Assembly (NCBI GenBank): GCA_947492955.1
Contig: CANLOV010000007.1
Coordinates: 62,001-126,000 of the forward strand
DNA length: 64,000 nt
DNA from: an uncultured Cellulophaga sp.
GTDB lineage: Bacteria > Bacteroidota > Bacteroidia > Flavobacteriales > Flavobacteriaceae
Direction: 5' to 3'
The number at the start of each line of letters is the position of its first letter. Position 1 is the stretch's first letter. A program made the translations under genes and the position numbers. Shown here one piece after another: positions 4,739 to 12,945 of this stretch. The notes under the pieces are model-generated. The model saw only the letters and a program-made list of their open reading frames with translations, made no database searches and was not told the DNA's origin.

Positions 4739-7039
4739 ATGAGTACTATTAAAAAGAGAAAAGTATCTTCAGAGGGTTCAAAAGAATTTACTGGCATTAA
4801 ATTAAAAGCTCCGGCAACCTATGCAGCAGGTTTAAAAGCTGTAAAAGTTGCTTTAGATCATGCTTTTAAAGAAATGGGAGTTACTAAATCTTTTAAAGGA
4901 TTAGCTCAAATGAATCAAAAAGAAGGTTTTGATTGTCCTGGTTGTGCATGGCCAGATCCAGAAAAACCTTCTAAAGTAGCAGAGTACTGTGAAAATGGAG
5001 CCAAAGCATTAGCAGAAGAAGCTACAAATGAAAAGGTAGACCGAGATTTTTTTGCTAAATATTCTGTAGAAGAAATTTCTCAATGGACAGATTATAAGAT
5101 AGGTAAAAGCGGCCGTATTACTGAACCTATGATTTTACGTCCTGGAAAAATACACTATGAACCTATTAATTGGAATGAGGCCTACCAAGAAATTGCAAAA
5201 CATTTAAAAGCATTAGATCACCCCGATGAAGCTATTTTTTACACCTCAGGGCGATCTAGTAACGAAGCTGCTTTCTTATATGGAGTATTTATACGTGCTT
5301 TTGGTACGCACAATATGCCCGATTGCTCTAATATGTGTCATGAATCTTCAGGAGTAGCCTTATCGGAAACCTTAGGAATAGGTAAAGGCTCTGTTAAATT
5401 AGAAGATTTTGATAAGGCAGAAGTAGTAATGGTTATGGGGCAAAATCCAGGTACCAATCACCCTCGTATGCTTTCGGCTCTACAAAAATGTAAAGAAAAT
5501 GGCGGTTCTGTAATTAGTATAAACCCTTTGGCAGAAGCTGGTCTTATACGATTTAAAAACCCTCAAGAAATAAAAGGAGTTTTACAAGGAGGAGAAGCAA
5601 TAACAGATATACATCTTCAAGTAAAAATTAATCAAGATATTGCTGTAATGAAAGTTATTCTAAAGCGTTTGTTAGCTTTAGATAAATTAAAAAAGAATGT
5701 TTTTGATCATGATTTTATTGCAAAATATACAGATGGTTATGATGCTTTTGTAGAGCATATAGAACAATTTAATGAAGATTCACTTATAGCCCAATCTGGA
5801 GTAAGTTCCGATGATATACAGAAAGTAGTAAACTTATTAGAAAAAAAAGATAAAATTATTATCTGCTGGGCAATGGGATTAACACAACATAAAAATGGTG
5901 TTGAAAACATTAAAGAATGTGTTAACCTATTATTATTAAAAGGAAGTTTAGGAAAAGAAGGAGCGGGTACTTGTCCTGTACGTGGTCATAGTAACGTACA
6001 AGGAGATCGTAGTGTAGGAATTGTACATCATGCAAATCCTGTTTTTAATGAAGCCTTAAAAAAAGAATTTGGTTTTGAAGCACCTACTAAAGGAGGTTAT
6101 GATGTTGTAGAGTGTATTGAAGCAATGCACAAAGAAAAAGCTAAAATATTTATGGCTTTAGGAGGAAATTTTGTTTCTGCTGCGTCTGATACTACTTATA
6201 CTGCAGAGGCGCTTCAAAAATGCGATTTAACTATTAATGTTTCTACCAAATTAAATAGAAACCATACTGTTGCAGGAAAAACTTCTATTATTTTACCCAC
6301 TTTAGGACGCTCAGAATTTGATGAAAGAGATGGGAAACAACGTTTCTTTACTGTAGAGAATAGTATGGGAGTTGTACACCGCTCTAAAGGTTTATTAAAA
6401 CCAGCTTCAGGAAATTTAAAAAGCGAACCCGAAATTATAGGTGGCATAGCAGATGCTTATTTTAAAGGTAAACATCCAGTAAATTGGAAAGCTTACGGAG
6501 AAAATTATGAAATGATTCGTACTAGTTTAGCTAATGTTTTAACAGACTATAAAGGACTAGAAGAAAAATCTAAAGGTTCAGGGTTTTATTTACGTAATAA
6601 TGTACGCAATTTAGATTTTAGTAAGTTACCTAATGGAAAAGCTCAATTTTCTAATAATAGTTTACCCAATCATAATTTAAATAAAGACGAATTTTTATTA
6701 ATGACCATTCGTTCTCACGACCAATTTAACACAACTATTTATGGTTTAGACGATCGTTATAGAGGCATATATAATGAGCGTAGAATTGTTTTAATTAATA
6801 AAAAAGATATGGAACGTTTAAATCTAAAAAAATTAGATGTGGTACATATTATTAGTAATTATGACCACAAAGAACGTAAAGCACTTAACTTTTTAATAAT
6901 TCCTTATAATATTCCACAAGGAAATTTAGCCTCTTATTTTCCAGAAACCAACGTATTAATACCTTATAACCAGTTTGCAGATAAAAGTAATACGCCTATA
7001 AGTAAATCTGTTAAAGTAACACTAGAAAAAGTAAACTAA
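4739..7039 (+). CDS. FdhF/YdeP family molybdopterin oxidoreductase
   Basis: The 766-residue cytoplasmic protein lacks a Tat signal. It belongs to the FdhF/YdeP branch of molybdopterin oxidoreductases. The N-terminus has the branch-specific C-P-G-C-A-W-P-D-P motif (about residue 66-74). Molybdopterin-binding blocks follow (Y-T-S-G-R-S-S-N-E-A; V-M-G-Q-N-P-G-T-N-H-P), and the C-terminal molydop-binding domain has R-S-H-D-Q-F-N-T-T-I-Y-G. Cys200 in S-N-M-C-H-E-S-S-G sits where formate dehydrogenases carry their Mo-ligating Sec or Cys. The classical N-terminal 4Fe-4S CxxCxxxC set is absent. The substrate of YdeP-type enzymes is not established. The gene stands alone, 109 bp after the TPR gene. 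Confidence 0.9.
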   Translation: MSTIKKRKVSSEGSKEFTGIKLKAPATYAAGLKAVKVALDHAFKEMGVTKSFKGLAQMNQKEGFDCPGCAWPDPEKPSKVAEYCENGAKALAEEATNEKVDRDFFAKYSVEEISQWTDYKIGKSGRITEPMILRPGKIHYEPINWNEAYQEIAKHLKALDHPDEAIFYTSGRSSNEAAFLYGVFIRAFGTHNMPDCSNMCHESSGVALSETLGIGKGSVKLEDFDKAEVVMVMGQNPGTNHPRMLSALQKCKENGGSVISINPLAEAGLIRFKNPQEIKGVLQGGEAITDIHLQVKINQDIAVMKVILKRLLALDKLKKNVFDHDFIAKYTDGYDAFVEHIEQFNEDSLIAQSGVSSDDIQKVVNLLEKKDKIIICWAMGLTQHKNGVENIKECVNLLLLKGSLGKEGAGTCPVRGHSNVQGDRSVGIVHHANPVFNEALKKEFGFEAPTKGGYDVVECIEAMHKEKAKIFMALGGNFVSAASDTTYTAEALQKCDLTINVSTKLNRNHTVAGKTSIILPTLGRSEFDERDGKQRFFTVENSMGVVHRSKGLLKPASGNLKSEPEIIGGIADAYFKGKHPVNWKAYGENYEMIRTSLANVLTDYKGLEEKSKGSGFYLRNNVRNLDFSKLPNGKAQFSNNSLPNHNLNKDEFLLMTIRSHDQFNTTIYGLDDRYRGIYNERRIVLINKKDMERLNLKKLDVVHIISNYDHKERKALNFLIIPYNIPQGNLASYFPETNVLIPYNQFADKSNTPISKSVKVTLEKVN

Positions 7040-7445: not shown

Positions 7446-7571
7446 TTTAAAAACATTAGAGGCATCAAGATTTTTAAAGTTTAAATATCAATTTACAAGA
7501 ACATTACAACACCTTTCTCTTAGCTCACAACAATAATTTATTTAAAAACTATAACCTACTTATATTTATAA

Positions 7572-7660
7572 TGTAATTAAAAAGATAGTTAGTTAAAATT
7601 TTCATTTTCATATAGTGTTCTCAATAAAGAGTTTTGTTTTAGTTAGGCAAAACTCTTTTT
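7572..7660 (+). ncRNA. Putative small RNA, stand-alone copy of the six-member family
   Basis: The copy matches the array at 11.7-12.8 kb. Upstream is TCACAACAATAA, then a TATATTTA box (7561-7568). An unstructured leader follows with the invariant 23 nt block beginning TTTTCATTTTCATATAGTG, then a terminator hairpin AAAGAGTTTTG / CAAAACTCTTT with a T-run. The TSS is guessed from the -7 box. It sits about 60 bp before the YHYH lipoprotein gene, so it could also be read as that gene's attenuated leader. The rest of the 341 bp gap (7383-7723) holds only the ppnP terminator and AT-rich sequence. Confidence 0.5.
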
Positions 7661-7723
7661 AGTTTATAGAATTAAACCTTTTTCTCAAAAAAAAGTCATA
7701 ATTAATAGTTAACCCCAAATATT

Positions 7724-8479
7724 ATGAAAAAATTAAAATACATTTCATTTTTAGTTATACTTATCTTAACTGTTTCTTGTTCTAATGATGAGGTAAAAAC
7801 AGACGACCCAGAGATCATAAATAAAACTACTTATGATATATCTCCTATTTTAACAAAATTTGTAGGTACTGGTTTATCCTATGAAGTAAATGGAAACAAT
7901 GTAACATTTACCACACAAGATTTACCAGATCATACAAGTCCTTATTGGCCAACGGACAATACCTTATATGAAGAGTATAATGGAACCAATGCAGATTGGA
8001 GACAAAACCCAGGTAGTATTGGTGCACAAAATATTGTACTAACAATGACATTAAACCCTGCCGAAGCTACCAATCATCAAGCTACCGGCTTAGGACCTAT
8101 CGGAATTGCAAGAAACGGAGTAGTTTTCTTTAATCAATATGCGGCAGGTAACGAGCCTTTAACTGGTGAAATAAATTCATTTGATCAATGGTTAGGGCAC
8201 CCCGCTATGACCACCTATCATTACCATATAGAACCAACATGGTTAACAAAAACATATGGCAATGATGCCTTTTTAGGCTTACTATCCGATGGTTTTCCTG
8301 TTTATGGGCCAGTAGAAGATGGAAAAACAATTACAAATAGTGATTTAGATAGCTACCATGGACATGTAGGTGCTACTACTGATTTCCCAAATGGAATTTA
8401 TCATTACCATATTACAGGAGAAGACCCTTATTTAAACGGAAACGGTTATTATGGTACACCAGGAAACATAACACGTTAA
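7724..8479 (+). CDS. YHYH domain lipoprotein
   Basis: This 251-residue lipoprotein has a lipobox cysteine in T-V-S-C-S-N-D-E (about residue 19). The YHYH domain follows, with the name-giving T-Y-H-Y-H-I-E motif (about 166-172) and a second I-Y-H-Y-H-I-T-G-E-D-P-Y near the C-terminus. YHYH proteins are predicted envelope proteins of unknown activity; the histidines suggest metal binding. It heads a tight operon with YwqK-like, SCO1-like and sulfatase-like genes, all lipoproteins. The nearby SCO1 copper protein makes a metal-linked role attractive, but that is inference. Confidence 0.88.
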   Translation: MKKLKYISFLVILILTVSCSNDEVKTDDPEIINKTTYDISPILTKFVGTGLSYEVNGNNVTFTTQDLPDHTSPYWPTDNTLYEEYNGTNADWRQNPGSIGAQNIVLTMTLNPAEATNHQATGLGPIGIARNGVVFFNQYAAGNEPLTGEINSFDQWLGHPAMTTYHYHIEPTWLTKTYGNDAFLGLLSDGFPVYGPVEDGKTITNSDLDSYHGHVGATTDFPNGIYHYHITGEDPYLNGNGYYGTPGNITR

Positions 8480-9049
8480 TTGAAATTTTTAGGCTTACAT
8501 ACCATATGTATACTTTTATTTATTTCGGCTTGTACTAAAACTGAAAAAAATATAACAGTAGCCAACACCAATCCAAATTTACAGTTGGATAATGGAGTGC
8601 TACTATACAATCAAAAACCATATAGCGGAAACATTGTAAGCTACTATAAAAACAACAATTTAAAATCTGATGTTAAATATAAAAGTGGTAGAAAGCATGG
8701 TACTGAAAAACAATGGTATTCTAACTCTAATTTAGCTATTGAACGCTATTATACAAAAGGAATAAAAACAGGTATACATAGAGCATGGTGGGATAATGGA
8801 ACTCAAAAATTTGAATATCATTTTAATACAAAAGGAATGTATCATGGTATACATAAAGAATGGTATGCATCCGGACAAATCTATAGAGATTTTAATTATA
8901 TAAACGGACAAGAAGTTGGCAAACAACGTTTATATAAAAGTAATGGAACAATAAAAGCTAATTACGAAGTAGTAAATGGTGAACGTTTTGGCTTAATTGG
9001 CTTAAAAAAATGTAAAACTGTTACTATAAATAGTACCAACCTTAAATAA
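8480..9049 (+). CDS. MORN-variant (YwqK family) lipoprotein, TTG start
   Basis: The 189-residue lipoprotein (lipobox I-S-A-C-T-K, Cys about 18) carries at least five YwqK/MORN-variant repeats. Typical elements are Y-S-G-N-I-V-S-Y-Y, G-R-K-H-G-T-E-K-Q-W-Y and G-M-Y-H-G-I-H-K-E-W-Y-A-S-G. The only start that keeps the signal peptide is a TTG at 8480-8482, directly abutting the TAA of the YHYH gene (TAATTG), which implies coupled translation. The family is often mislabelled an antitoxin. Here it is more likely a surface-anchored repeat protein of the YHYH-SCO1-sulfatase operon. Confidence 0.8.
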   Translation: MKFLGLHTICILLFISACTKTEKNITVANTNPNLQLDNGVLLYNQKPYSGNIVSYYKNNNLKSDVKYKSGRKHGTEKQWYSNSNLAIERYYTKGIKTGIHRAWWDNGTQKFEYHFNTKGMYHGIHKEWYASGQIYRDFNYINGQEVGKQRLYKSNGTIKANYEVVNGERFGLIGLKKCKTVTINSTNLK

Positions 9050-9057
9050 TAAAAAGA

Positions 9058-9705
9058 ATGAAAAATATAGGGTTGTTTATTCTTATAACTTGCTTGTACT
9101 TTTCGTGTAAGCCAAAAGATTCTACTGTTGCTACAACCAATAAGAAGGAAGTAGCCCAACTCCCCTATTTTAATGCTGCAGATTTTACTCCCGAATGGGA
9201 AAAAGGAAACCATAAAATTCCTGATTTTTCTTTTATAAACCAAAATGGAGATACTATTAATAATAATACCTATAAAGGTAAAATATACGTCGCTAATTTT
9301 TTCTTTACTGTTTGCCCTAGTATTTGTCCTAAACTCACAAAAAACATGCATGGTTTACAAGAAACTTATGCTAAAGATTCAGAAATAATGTTATTATCAC
9401 ACTCCGTAATGCCGTGGCAAGATTCTGTACAAGTATTAGCCCAATATGCTGCCAATAATAATGTTGTAAGCTCTAAATGGAATCTAGTAACAGGAAATAA
9501 AGATAGTATTTACCATATTGCACGTACTGGTTATTTTGCCGATGAAGATTTTTATAAAACACAAAGCAAAAGTGATTTTATACATACCGAAAACTTTATT
9601 TTAGTTGATAAAGAAGGACATATACGAGGTGTTTACAACGGAACTATAGACATTGATATACAACGTTTAGAAAGACATATTAAAATATTAAAAACAGAGG
9701 TTTAA
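9058..9705 (+). CDS. SCO1/SenC family copper-binding lipoprotein
   Basis: The 215-residue lipoprotein (S-C-K-P-K-D, Cys about 17) has a thioredoxin-like SCO1/SenC domain. The copper-binding T-V-C-P-S-I-C-P (CxxxC) lies near residues 84-91, and the conserved histidine is in D-F-I-H-T-E-N-F near 180. SCO proteins deliver copper to the CuA site of cytochrome oxidase or act as thiol reductases. The gene is 8 nt after the YwqK-like gene and 17 nt before the sulfatase gene. Confidence 0.9.
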   Translation: MKNIGLFILITCLYFSCKPKDSTVATTNKKEVAQLPYFNAADFTPEWEKGNHKIPDFSFINQNGDTINNNTYKGKIYVANFFFTVCPSICPKLTKNMHGLQETYAKDSEIMLLSHSVMPWQDSVQVLAQYAANNNVVSSKWNLVTGNKDSIYHIARTGYFADEDFYKTQSKSDFIHTENFILVDKEGHIRGVYNGTIDIDIQRLERHIKILKTEV

Positions 9706-9722
9706 CCCAAATTCTTATTGTT

Positions 9723-11042
9723 ATGAAACATTTATATACCTACATTTTTTGTTGCTTACTACTTTTAGCATGTAGTACCGATAAAGATAACAGCATAATT
9801 AATGAAGAAGAAGCTACTGAAACAAGTTCACCAAATATAATGCTTATTATAGCAGATGATATGGGTTTAGATGCTACTCCAAGATATACTATTGGTGATA
9901 CAAAACCTAATATGCCTAATCTGCAAAATTTAATAAATACAGGCATACGTTTTAATAATGTTTGGGCTTATCCTACATGTACACCTACGCGTGCAAGTAT
10001 ACTTACAGGAAAATATGGATATAGAACAGGAGTAACTTCAGTTGGCGATAATCTTTCTACTACTGAAACTTCTATTCAGCAATTTTTAGATACTAATACA
10101 TCAGAAGCATACAACCATGCCGTTATAGGTAAATGGCATCTTTCTAATAGTAGCACTCATCCAATAGACATGGGCATTAATTATTATTCAGGAAGTATCT
10201 CTGGTACCGTACAATCTTATTGGGATTGGAATTTGGTAGAAGATAACATATCAAATACATCTACAACATATACTACTACCAAATTTACAGATTTAGCTAT
10301 TGACTGGGTAGGAAAACAAACGAAGCCATGGTTTTTGTGGTTAGCCTATAATGCACCACATACTCCTTTTCATTTACCAGATACTAATTTACACTCACAA
10401 GGAGCACTCCCAAATGACCAAGCAAGTATAGATGCAAACCCACTACCCTATTATATGGCAATGCTAGAAGCAATGGATACTGAATTTGGAAGGTTACTGA
10501 GTAGTATGAGTGATGAGGAGAAAGACAATACAATTTTCATATTTTTAGGAGACAATGGGTCTCCCAACCAAGTAGCGCAAGGTTATAATAGCCGTAGAGT
10601 AAAAGGAAGTATTTACCAAGGTGGTATTAATGTGCCTATGATTATAGCAGGTAAAGGAGTTTCTAGAATTAATGAAACAGAAAATGCATTAATTAATTCT
10701 ACCGATTTATTTGCTACTATTGCAGATATTGCAAATACTGGTACTACTGAAATTAATGATAGTAAAAGTTTTAAAGGCTTACTTACAGATAGTAATGCCA
10801 ACAAAAGATCTTATGTATATGCCGAAATAAACAATATAGATACAGGTGAAGCCGATTATGCTATTAGAAACGAAACTCATAAATACATTAAATTTAAAGA
10901 CGGATCTGAAGCTTTATTTAATTTAACAGAGAACTCATTAGAAAATCCAAACCTACTAAATGCAAATCAATTGCCATTGAGTAATACCAATAGTGCTATA
11001 AAAGATGAGCTAGTTACTCAACTTTCTAAAATTACTCCGTAA
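9723..11042 (+). CDS. Sulfatase-family lipoprotein
   Basis: The 439-residue lipoprotein (L-L-A-C-S-T-D, Cys about 17) has a type I sulfatase fold. It starts with N-I-M-L-I-I-A-D-D-M-G (metal aspartates) and has the C-T-P-T-R-A-S-I-L-T-G-K signature near residue 94. The cysteine there would be converted to formylglycine, which requires a maturase not encoded in this window. H-T-P-F-H, F-L-G-D-N-G-S and K-G-S-I-Y-Q-G-G-I-N-V-P complete the active-site blocks. The substrate is unknown; the isolated location argues against a dedicated polysaccharide locus. It is the last gene of the operon and converges on the DEAD-box gene. Confidence 0.9.
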   Translation: MKHLYTYIFCCLLLLACSTDKDNSIINEEEATETSSPNIMLIIADDMGLDATPRYTIGDTKPNMPNLQNLINTGIRFNNVWAYPTCTPTRASILTGKYGYRTGVTSVGDNLSTTETSIQQFLDTNTSEAYNHAVIGKWHLSNSSTHPIDMGINYYSGSISGTVQSYWDWNLVEDNISNTSTTYTTTKFTDLAIDWVGKQTKPWFLWLAYNAPHTPFHLPDTNLHSQGALPNDQASIDANPLPYYMAMLEAMDTEFGRLLSSMSDEEKDNTIFIFLGDNGSPNQVAQGYNSRRVKGSIYQGGINVPMIIAGKGVSRINETENALINSTDLFATIADIANTGTTEINDSKSFKGLLTDSNANKRSYVYAEINNIDTGEADYAIRNETHKYIKFKDGSEALFNLTENSLENPNLLNANQLPLSNTNSAIKDELVTQLSKITP

Positions 11043-11047
11043 AATGC

Positions 11048-11665
11048 TTATTTAGATATTTTTACGGTCTGCGCATTATACATAAAAGTGTCTTTTAAAC
11101 GCTCTAATCTTTGATGCAATTCTGAAGCAAAAATTACATACTGACATTTATTAATACTTTCTGGTAGTCTAACAACACTAGAATAATCGCTACTGTTAGC
11201 TAAAAATTCAGCATCTTCTATAATAAACAATTTTACTTCGCCTAAGTTAATTCCGTTAAGATGAAATAATTTACCTAATCTTTTTGGCGTAGCTATAACA
11301 ATATCTACTCCTGCATATATTTCGTCTTTTTGGATATCTATATTATGTTCTTCATATGCACTGTATACTCGTAAATCCATACGGTAAACAAAATCTTTTA
11401 TTAAATGCTCTAATTCTAAAGCGGCTTGCTTATCTTTTACTATAATAATAGCTCTTGGAGCATCCTCGAAAGCAGCACTATTTAATTTCTGAATTACACT
11501 TATAATCATAGAAATAGTTTTACCACTACCCTTTGGTGCTATTCCATACACATTAGCTCCTCCTTTTATTTTAGAAATTATTTCTTTTTGAAAAGGGAAT
11601 GGGTTTTCTAAGCCTACTCTGTCTATTGCTTCCAATAATGGTTCGTTTAATTTTTTAAAAGGCAT
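11048..11665 (-). CDS. Single-domain DEAD/DEAH-box-like protein
   Basis: The 205-residue protein matches only the first RecA domain of DEAD-box helicases. It has P-F-P-F-Q-K-E-I-I (Q motif), A-P-K-G-S-G-K-T (motif I) and T-P-K-R-L (Ib). The DEAD box is replaced by I-I-E-D-A-E-F, and the SAT motif appears degraded to F-A-S-E-L. The second RecA domain is missing and the gene ends cleanly in a terminal stop, with no remnant downstream. Short proteins of this type recur in Flavobacteriia, so it is probably a functional single-domain relative rather than a fresh truncation. Helicase activity is doubtful. Confidence 0.75.
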   Translation of the reverse strand: MPFKKLNEPLLEAIDRVGLENPFPFQKEIISKIKGGANVYGIAPKGSGKTISMIISVIQKLNSAAFEDAPRAIIIVKDKQAALELEHLIKDFVYRMDLRVYSAYEEHNIDIQKDEIYAGVDIVIATPKRLGKLFHLNGINLGEVKLFIIEDAEFLANSSDYSSVVRLPESINKCQYVIFASELHQRLERLKDTFMYNAQTVKISK

Positions 11666-11809
11666 ATTCTATCTTATGTTATGGGGCTAATATAGAGAGT
11701 TTAATTAAATAAAATAAATCCTATATCAAAATACATGTATCTCACAACAACTATTTCTTAACTCACAACAATAGTTTAATTTAAAGCTATAAGTCGCATA
11801 TATTTACAG

Positions 11810-11899
11810 TGTAATTAAAAAGATAGTTAGTTAAAAATTTTTCATTTTCATATAGTGTTCTCAAAAAGAGTTTTGTTTTAGTTAGGCAAAGCTCTTTTT
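11810..11899 (+). ncRNA. Putative small RNA, array copy 1
   Basis: The TATATTTA box is at 11799-11806. The leader contains GATAGTTAGTTA, then the invariant block starting TTTTCATTTTC, then the hairpin AAAGAGTTTTG / CAAAGCTCTTT (one G-T pair) and a T-run ending about 11899. An extra CTCACAACAA lies at 11741-11750, outside the unit. The start is inferred from the -7 box. Confidence 0.5.
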
Positions 11900-12036
11900 A
11901 TTTTATTAATACTCCAAATAAAAGAACAATTCAGCCTTCAAAAATTCAAATATCAAGTTTCAATCGTTTTACAACAACAACTCGTTAACTCACAACAATA
12001 GTTTAATTTAAACCCATAAGTCGTATATATTTACAG

Positions 12037-12124
12037 TGTAATTAAAAAAGATAGTTAGTTAATTTTCATTTTCATATAGTGTTCTCAAAAAGAGTTTTGT
12101 TTTAGTTAGGCAAAGCTCTTTTTT
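12037..12124 (+). ncRNA. Putative small RNA, array copy 2
   Basis: The TATATTTA box is at 12026-12033. The architecture matches copy 1, with the leader shortened by a few nucleotides between GATAGTTAGTTA and the invariant block. The terminator hairpin ends about 12124. Confidence 0.5.
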
Positions 12125-12262
12125 ATTGTATAAACACTCCAAATAAGAGAACAATTCAGTCTTCACAAAATTCAAATATCAAGTTTCAATCGTTTTACAA
12201 CAACAACTCGTTAACTCACAACAATAGTTTAATTTAAAGCTATAAGTCGTATATATTTACAG

Positions 12263-12349
12263 TGTAATTAAAAAGATAGTTAGTTAATTTTCATTTTCAT
12301 ATAGTGTTCTTAAAAAGAGTTTTGTTTTAGTTAGGCAAAGCTCTTTTTT
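12263..12349 (+). ncRNA. Putative small RNA, array copy 3
   Basis: The TATATTTA box is at 12252-12259. The block before the hairpin reads TTCTTAAAA rather than TTCTCAAAA, a change outside the stem. The T-run ends about 12349. Confidence 0.5.
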
Positions 12350-12487
12350 ATTTTATAAATACTCCAAATAAGAGAACCATTCTGTCTTCAAAAAATTCAA
12401 ATATCAAGTTTCAATCGTTTTACAACAACAACTCTTCAACTCACAACAATAGTTTAATTTAAAGCTATAAGTCGTATATATTTACAC

Positions 12488-12576
12488 TATAATTAAAAAA
12501 GATAGTTAGTTAATTTTCATTTTCATATAGTGTTCTTAAAAAGAGTTTTGTTTTAGTTAGGCAAAGCTCTTTTTTT
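12488..12576 (+). ncRNA. Putative small RNA, array copy 4
   Basis: The TATATTTA box is at 12477-12484. The predicted 5' end reads CACTATAATT where other copies read CAGTGTAATT. The hairpin is the same as in copy 3, and the T-run ends about 12576. Confidence 0.5.
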
Positions 12577-12716
12577 ATTTTATAAATACTTGTTCAAATA
12601 TGTATTTAAAAGCTTAAGAAAATATTCAAATAACAAAAATCGTATGTTACACCACAATGAATCATTAGTTCACAACAATAATTTATTCAAAAGCCAAAAC
12701 ACGCTTATATTTACAG

Positions 12717-12798
12717 TGTAATTAAAACGAAATAAAAATTTTCATTTTCATATAGTGTTCTCAGGAAAGAGTCTTATCATTTATGGTGAGACTCTTTT
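12717..12798 (+). ncRNA. Putative small RNA, divergent array copy 5
   Basis: The TATATTTA box is at 12706-12713. This copy lacks GATAGTTAGTTA in the leader and the matching TAGTTAG of the hairpin loop, yet keeps the 23 nt block unchanged. Its stem is AAAGAGTCT / AGACTCTTT against AAAGAGTTT / AAACTCTTT in the 7.6 kb copy. The T-to-C and A-to-G changes compensate each other and support a real stem. Confidence 0.5.
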
Positions 12799-12945
12799 CA
12801 ATTTCCCCCTTACCTAACCTGTACTCTTCTTTCGGAATTTAGAATCCATATAAATAGAAGGCATTCTGTTATTTATATCTCAAAATTGATGTTGAACATC
12901 GTAATTTAGAACACTACTTATATGTTAAAAGTCCCTTATATTTTT

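Follow-up and report, generated by a model that had tools for sequence, protein, structure and literature searches.

At this locus, short units stand head to tail in front of leuC. The window, i.e. the whole analysed stretch of 64,000 nucleotides (64 kb), holds six copies, five of them joined head to tail at 11744-12799 and a lone one (copy 0, 7506-7661) 4.2 kb upstream. The sequence-only reading had proposed five tandem sRNA genes with a period of 225-229 bp and a sixth copy at 7.57 kb, and both the array and the lone copy were recovered: TRF places the array at 11743-12772 with a period of 225, and the repeat search of the window returned start-to-start spacings of 4238, 227, 226, 225 and 229 for the six copies. 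All units share one anatomy, consisting of a direct repeat with a 21-bp period, a TATATTTA -7 box, an invariant 23-nt block and a terminator (Table 1), such that the box, block and hairpin described earlier hold for every copy. Both CACAACAATA and TATATTTA occur in 6/6 units, with the box always beginning 55 bp after the first base of the direct repeat, and an exact block match was found six times in the window and never in 100 shuffles. The promoter element had been described in part: its ACAACAATA half is indeed present in the units, but the second half of the repeat, 21 bp upstream, had been overlooked. Identity is 98% among copies 2-4 (85 nt compared) and 96% between two adjacent repeats (225 nt), which suggests that the array was amplified locally and recently. 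In the own genome outside the window, the 23-nt block is absent at up to 2 mismatches, and a whole-unit search with E below 0.001 detected just one promoter-like partial match (C4:144146).

Table 1. Predicted features of the six unit copies (positions in the window).
Feature	Position	Strand	Remarks
Copy 0 promoter	7506..7568	+	direct repeat 7506-7535, -7 box TATATTTA 7561-7568
Copy 0 predicted sRNA	7573..7661	+	start inferred from -7 box
Copy 0 invariant 23-nt block (putative antisense seed)	7599..7621	+	exact match
Copy 0 terminator hairpin	7626..7661	+	fold, covariation
Copy 1 promoter	11744..11806	+	direct repeat 11744-11773, box 11799-11806
Copy 1 predicted sRNA	11811..11898	+	start inferred from -7 box
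Copy 1 block	11839..11861	+	exact match
Copy 1 terminator hairpin	11864..11898	+	fold, covariation
Copy 2 promoter	11971..12033	+	direct repeat 11971-12000, box 12026-12033
Copy 2 predicted sRNA	12038..12124	+	start inferred from -7 box
Copy 2 block	12063..12085	+	exact match
Copy 2 terminator hairpin	12087..12124	+	fold, covariation
Copy 3 promoter	12197..12259	+	direct repeat 12197-12226, box 12252-12259
Copy 3 predicted sRNA	12264..12349	+	start inferred from -7 box
Copy 3 block	12288..12310	+	exact match
Copy 3 terminator hairpin	12312..12349	+	fold, covariation
Copy 4 promoter	12422..12484	+	direct repeat 12422-12451, box 12477-12484
Copy 4 predicted sRNA	12489..12575	+	start inferred from -7 box
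Copy 4 block	12514..12536	+	exact match
Copy 4 terminator hairpin	12538..12575	+	fold, covariation
Copy 5 promoter	12651..12713	+	direct repeat 12651-12680, box 12706-12713
Copy 5 predicted sRNA, divergent stem	12718..12799	+	start inferred from -7 box
Copy 5 block	12739..12761	+	exact match
Copy 5 terminator hairpin	12764..12799	+	fold, covariation

In Flavobacterium psychrophilum the -7 box (TAnnTTTG) is located at -12 to -5 (PMC9723704, in excerpt), and the RNA starts in Table 1 were predicted from this position, which gives putative transcripts of 82-89 nt. The predicted RNA consists of a short A/T-rich leader, the block UUUUCAUUUUCAUAUAGUGUUCU and an intrinsic terminator; CG usually follows UUUUCAUUUUCAUAUAGUGUUCU directly, but not in the window copies. 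Folding returned a terminator hairpin followed by T in all six. The compensating change noticed in the stem, C-G to U-A on comparing the last array copy with the one at 7.6 kb, was confirmed, and further compensatory changes appeared when 46 of 68 copies were aligned: pairing in the stem is kept at 94.6%, both sides have changed in 10 of 13 stem pairs, and 84 double-change cells were observed versus 27.7 in shuffles, while slid structures score far lower. The number of stem pairs with double changes is by itself unexceptional, being reached by 107 of 500 shuffles. An RNA model scored the six copies with 63-97 bits and the next match, just behind a tRNA, with 28 bits. The interpretation as tandem sRNA genes is thus supported by covariation as well as by relatives in many genera. 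An identity with Flavo-1 had been considered possible; however, the covariance-model search of the units gave no Flavo-1 match, and other Rfam RNAs were likewise rejected, as Rfam found nothing but a tRNA in the 64-kb window at the gathering score and no family match in the region 7450-12900 at E up to 1. The block sequence as text was not found in the literature searched. Judged from its sequence, each unit is a copy of a previously uncatalogued small regulatory RNA, which would be transcribed from its own promoter.

By sequence, this RNA, whose core of 23 letters hardly varies, is spread over one large group of marine flavobacteria. With up to 2 mismatches the block was found in 72 of 397 Flavobacteriaceae genomes belonging to 43 of 237 genera, usually in 2-7 copies compared with the six near-identical ones here, whereas the reversed block gave one match in the same 397 genomes. 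Among the 150 block sites listed, 134 are exact, eight have one and eight two mismatches. This search is the fairer measure of invariance, because the copies used below for gene neighbourhoods and repeat spacing were mostly found through the exact block, and the invariance in these sets reflects selection of the copies. Carriers among the matches listed include Maribacter, Allomuricauda, Flagellimonas, Robiginitalea, Arenibacter, Zobellia, Eudoraea and Cellulophaga. In a whole-unit search, 39 of 80 genomes matched at E <= 0.01, many of the weak matches being due to chance (those in G031 and G036 lacked the block on inspection), and all 17 genomes of the same genus had at least four matches. 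In several other Cellulophaga, a gene from the same helicase family (c8) is flanked by copies on one side or on both. Moreover, a molybdopterin oxidoreductase gene lies near copy 0 (window 4739-7039), and its family, with 16 members, recurs near copies in other genera.

What the RNA might act on was approached by searching for complements of the block. A long complementary target was rejected, since none rose above control levels: in the own genome the 16-nt complement gave no site outside the copies at 1-2 mismatches, and its 57 sites at up to 3 mismatches compare with 69 in the control; searching 12 Cellulophaga genomes with 18 nt yielded 230 sites versus 164, and no fewer than 51 of the 230 are the copies themselves. 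Among 24 of the 57 sites that were read, three span a first ATG, namely those of an outer-membrane beta-barrel protein gene (PF13568; G000:C1:347684; -18.1 kcal/mol with the block), a long exported TPR protein gene (-18.8 kcal/mol) and a symporter-like protein gene (-14.8 kcal/mol), listed as L316, L325 and L327, respectively. A search for AGAACAYTATG in four genomes (33 sites, 30 of them read) showed the TPR gene alone in all four, and the other start-codon matches were set aside for this reason. The latter, each seen in a single genome, belong to what we take, mostly from the sequence, to be genes for an exported protein (own genome), an Hsp20-like protein and a lipoprotein (G014), an aldolase-like protein (G397), and a beta-lactamase and a sulfatase (G018). 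No clear gene start was seen on reading L387 and L388. The neighbouring genes of the copies were also rejected as targets: for 430 of them the median family mean was -9.5 in another scoring, and only the small family c35 (three genes, mean -15.2, each with at most 1 of 40 shuffles as good) came close.

The TPR gene was then compared in 30 genomes, 24 with the sRNA and six without it, the latter including G361 with its lone 2-mismatch match. A site complementary to the block is present at the start codon in 24/24 sRNA-positive versus 0/6 sRNA-negative genomes; 23 rather than 24 genomes count as a test, because the target was first picked by complementarity in the own genome, and these 23 are related to each other. 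The site reads AGARCRYTATG in 22 of the 24, whereas G002 and G007 have ATATGAAAATGAAAA, which is complementary to the other half of the block, although the ATGAAAATGAAA used in this pairing could be ordinary coding sequence; neither form exists in the six negative genomes. The mean pairing energy is -17.3 kcal/mol with and -6.8 kcal/mol without the sRNA, and at most 5 of 500 shuffled blocks were as good in 17/24 versus 0/6 genomes. Pairing is weaker in the remaining 7/24 genomes, with 34 of 500 shuffles as good in G043. Furthermore, the information content at the TPR start is 1.19 bits at -11 to -1 and 0.31 at -40 to -12, a ratio of 3.8 compared with 0.7-1.7 in nine control families with roughly assigned start codons. 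The protein has YbgF-like TPR repeats (TIGR02795, 171 bits), and the gene behind it encodes an exported protein of 583 aa with no family match in NCBIfam or PDB sequences. This conserved complementarity suggests that the sRNA probably blocks the start codon of an envelope-protein gene.

It might also be that the RNA is real and LytTR-controlled but serves mainly as a decoy whose block binds a protein, the match at the TPR start being secondary. CsrB and RsmY RNAs, which titrate CsrA, are the model for such a function. A nearly invariant block in several copies per genome would suit a decoy, as would the lack of any outstanding long complement elsewhere; however, each RNA has only one block, and the complementary start site is kept in all 24 sRNA-positive genomes and in none of the six negative ones. 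In addition, two protein families that could be bound were searched for in four genomes, and neither Hfq (its control was detected in 5/14) nor RRM_1, the family of RbpB (its Bacteroides control was detected), had a match in any of them. We therefore regard the decoy as unlikely. The same result argues against an Hfq-dependent sRNA in these four genomes, and any helper protein would have to be another one.

For antisense pairing at the TPR start, as preferred here, the next question is how the copies would be switched on. The second half-site ACMACAA stands upstream of ACAACAAT with a period of 21 bp. In a sample of 165 copies less than 75% alike, drawn from 236 distinct ones, it lies (6 of 7 positions or better) exactly 21 bp upstream in 133, while other offsets between 12 and 32 gave 0-19. 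The pattern AC[N][A/T]CA-N15-ACA[A/T]CA occurs six times in the window, once per copy, versus a mean of 0.17 in 30 base shuffles. A stricter form, ACANCA-N15-ACAACAAT, has eight sites in the own genome compared with one in the control. Five of these belong to the copies (all but copy 5), and the others lie in the gap between a regulator and a kinase gene, at an ECF sigma gene and at an exported-protein gene. In four other Cellulophaga genomes the stricter form has 1-3 sites each (control 0-2). Typical LytTR binding sites consist of 9-bp direct repeats separated by 10-13 bp (PMC11347149, in excerpt), a spacing that the 21-bp period matches when the period rather than the half-site length is considered.

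A LytTR response regulator is in fact a close companion of the block. In the own genome its gene lies outside the window (G000:C3:65070-65834), and the copy between it and the kinase gene lacks the block. Around the 227 copies with analysed neighbourhoods, the order UbiA gene, LytTR regulator, sRNA, TPR/HisKA_2 kinase recurs; the regulator is the nearest upstream gene in 40 of them, usually with a histidine kinase gene behind, and its cluster is present in 39 loci. An orthologue with 275 bits or more exists in 71 of 72 block genomes and 11 of 325 others, i.e. among the 397 genomes 71 have both, one has the block only (G361), 11 a diverged regulator only and 314 neither (Fisher 2e-65 with kinship ignored, the co-occurrence lying mainly in one clade). 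The block is contained in each of the 70 genomes whose regulator has an identity of 82% or more. Downstream of the regulator, the repeat was found in 50 of 59 loci, 38 of which have at least two repeats distributed over >60 nt; the block is present in 42 of these 59, many of which were retrieved by means of it. Six of the eleven regulator-only genomes have the strict repeat behind the regulator, and two more a similar repeat-plus-terminator layout by eye. The common operator and its co-occurring response regulator make it probable that a single two-component sensor system turns on the sRNA copies; from the spacing and the linkage, its regulator would be expected to bind the direct repeat and activate all copies.

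An activator of AraC or another type with a 21-bp direct-repeat site, instead of the LytTR protein, appears quite unlikely to us. AraC-type sites may have a similar spacing to LytTR sites, and a gene named AraC-type from its sequence lies near copies of a promoter subtype (L050 and L059). Against this stand the close genomic companionship of the block with one LytTR regulator, the location of the repeat inside the locus of this very regulator, and a spacing as known for LytTR sites. The subtype, with ACACATCAAT, was seen at L050, L051, L052, L053 and L059, and at L050-L053 the copies adjoin HisKA kinase genes encoding 302 aa.

Similar elements also occur elsewhere. In four Cellulophaga genomes, the gene for an ECF sigma factor is preceded by a repeat plus -7 box without the block (L054 at G000:C4:144127, L056, L057 and L058), in the strict pattern in G000 and G007 and by eye in the other two, the assignment resting on Pfam for the G000 protein. 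In G000, G002, G007 and G013 (L246, L237, L239, L236), the repeat likewise precedes genes whose exported products have ~450 aa or more, and three of these four proteins look alike. At L055 (G009:C1:1688919) a similar promoter is followed by a terminator but no block.

The regulator locus itself contains more than one kind of unit. A second RNA class, CCCAAATnTTAT, occupies the regulator-kinase gap in 12 of 59 loci (L220, L221, L222, L283, L291, L292, L296, L301 and four others), and a block-negative genome has four tandem repeat-terminator units between regulator and kinase (L284). In the regulator-locus copies of G014 and G105, a CAAATCTT(A/T)TCATTTTC stretch is joined to the later part of the block, hence a copy in that locus might be the origin of the dispersed class. 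As a joint reading, which we put forward tentatively and consider possible rather than probable, the LytTR system would act largely via RNA, its locus being a nursery of tandem sRNA genes with UUUUCAUUUUCAUAUAGUGUUCU and CCCAAATnTTAT seeds, from which one class spread widely with a seed frozen across dozens of genera and controls the start codon of the TPR operon without Hfq or RRM_1.

A mobile repeat or recombination site lacking RNA function might likewise be multicopy, tandem and found in varied contexts; it is very improbable given the conserved promoter spacing, the terminator covariation beyond slid and shuffled controls, the recurring position between regulator and kinase, and the viral contigs searched, which contain no exact match. 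A cis-acting leader or attenuator array for leuC is hardly credible: the array ends ~240 nt before leuC on the same strand, but every unit has its own promoter and terminator, and among the neighbours of the 227 copies (flanks mostly 1.5-8 kb) the leuC cluster (c84) has one member, that of the window. The tandem arrangement before leuC had been called unusual; other genomes have 2-4 copies side by side, and leuC is no conserved neighbour.

Collectively, we consider it likely that the units encode a trans-acting sRNA which is present in multiple copies, is activated by a LytTR regulator and masks the start codon of an envelope operon. Each unit would be a free-standing gene for an RNA of ~82-89 nt. 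A signal would act on the kinase and the kinase on the LytTR regulator, every step being our inference; the regulator would bind the direct repeat just upstream of the Bacteroidota-type -7 box and turn on all copies together, the tandem ones raising the sRNA dose. The single-stranded antisense block could then pair with the start of the exported TPR mRNA (AGAACAYUAUG type) and hide its start codon, such that less of the envelope TPR protein, and probably also less of the exported protein encoded just behind, would be made. Repression rather than activation is assumed from the start-codon geometry. Little is known about regulatory RNAs in flavobacteria, and sRNA action without Hfq is an open question; here a family defined by sequence offers a likely switch, a conserved start-codon target site and many genomes for testing. 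The combination of a LytTR switch, residence in the regulator-kinase locus and a frozen start-codon seed was not found in the literature searched, which covered few subscription papers and others in excerpt.

Several known systems resemble this RNA in part. Rfp18 of F. psychrophilum, predicted to pair via its third stem-loop and affecting metalloprotease mRNAs (PMC9723704, in excerpt), is also a conserved flavobacterial sRNA, but an identity was rejected due to its different architecture, as the RNA here has one conserved stem. The regulator AgrA, which is of the LytTR type, binds to direct repeats that precede the promoters P2 and P3 within the agr locus itself (PMC4227749, in excerpt). A LytTR-type regulator with direct repeats in its own locus is what both systems share. 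The agr promoter P3 drives RNAIII, a single, long and partly coding RNA, in contrast to the dispersed family of ~85-nt RNAs described here. The Bacteroides FopS/GibS RNAs are paralogous sRNAs with a conserved seed against the start regions of outer-membrane transporter mRNAs; FopS has 14 members that bind RbpB (RRM_1) and carry the seed at the 5' end (PMC11697453, in excerpt). They are thus similar as paralogous Bacteroidota sRNAs with a conserved seed for start regions, but differ in their target and in RRM_1, absent from the four genomes here. In streptococci, five similar csRNAs are under one response regulator, that of CiaRH (PMC4507080, PMC3091779, in excerpt). Several similar sRNAs under one response regulator, a kind to which LhrC, csRNA and Qrr belong, are likewise proposed here, the sequences having been compared via the Rfam search alone. 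CiaR is an OmpR-type regulator and the csRNAs are dispersed, which differs from the present case. Listeria LhrC1-5 are multicopy RNAs of 111-114 nt, LhrC1-4 being clustered and LhrC5 apart; they are controlled by the LisRK two-component system and bind mRNA translation starts, for example that of an adhesin (PMC12101431, in excerpt). Multiple copies, two-component control and targeting of translation starts, here predicted, are in common, whereas the phylum, the sequence and the regulator type differ, and LhrC uses CU-rich motifs against ribosome-binding sites instead of the predicted anti-start-codon block. To our knowledge, the LhrC genes also do not reside inside a two-component locus, unlike some copies of the RNA here. 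On the best reading of its sequence features, its mode of action would resemble that of LhrC/LisRK, csRNA/CiaRH or FopS, although the RNA falls into none of these groups, and it would represent a Bacteroidota case of a recurring design in which a two-component system acts through several redundant sRNAs.
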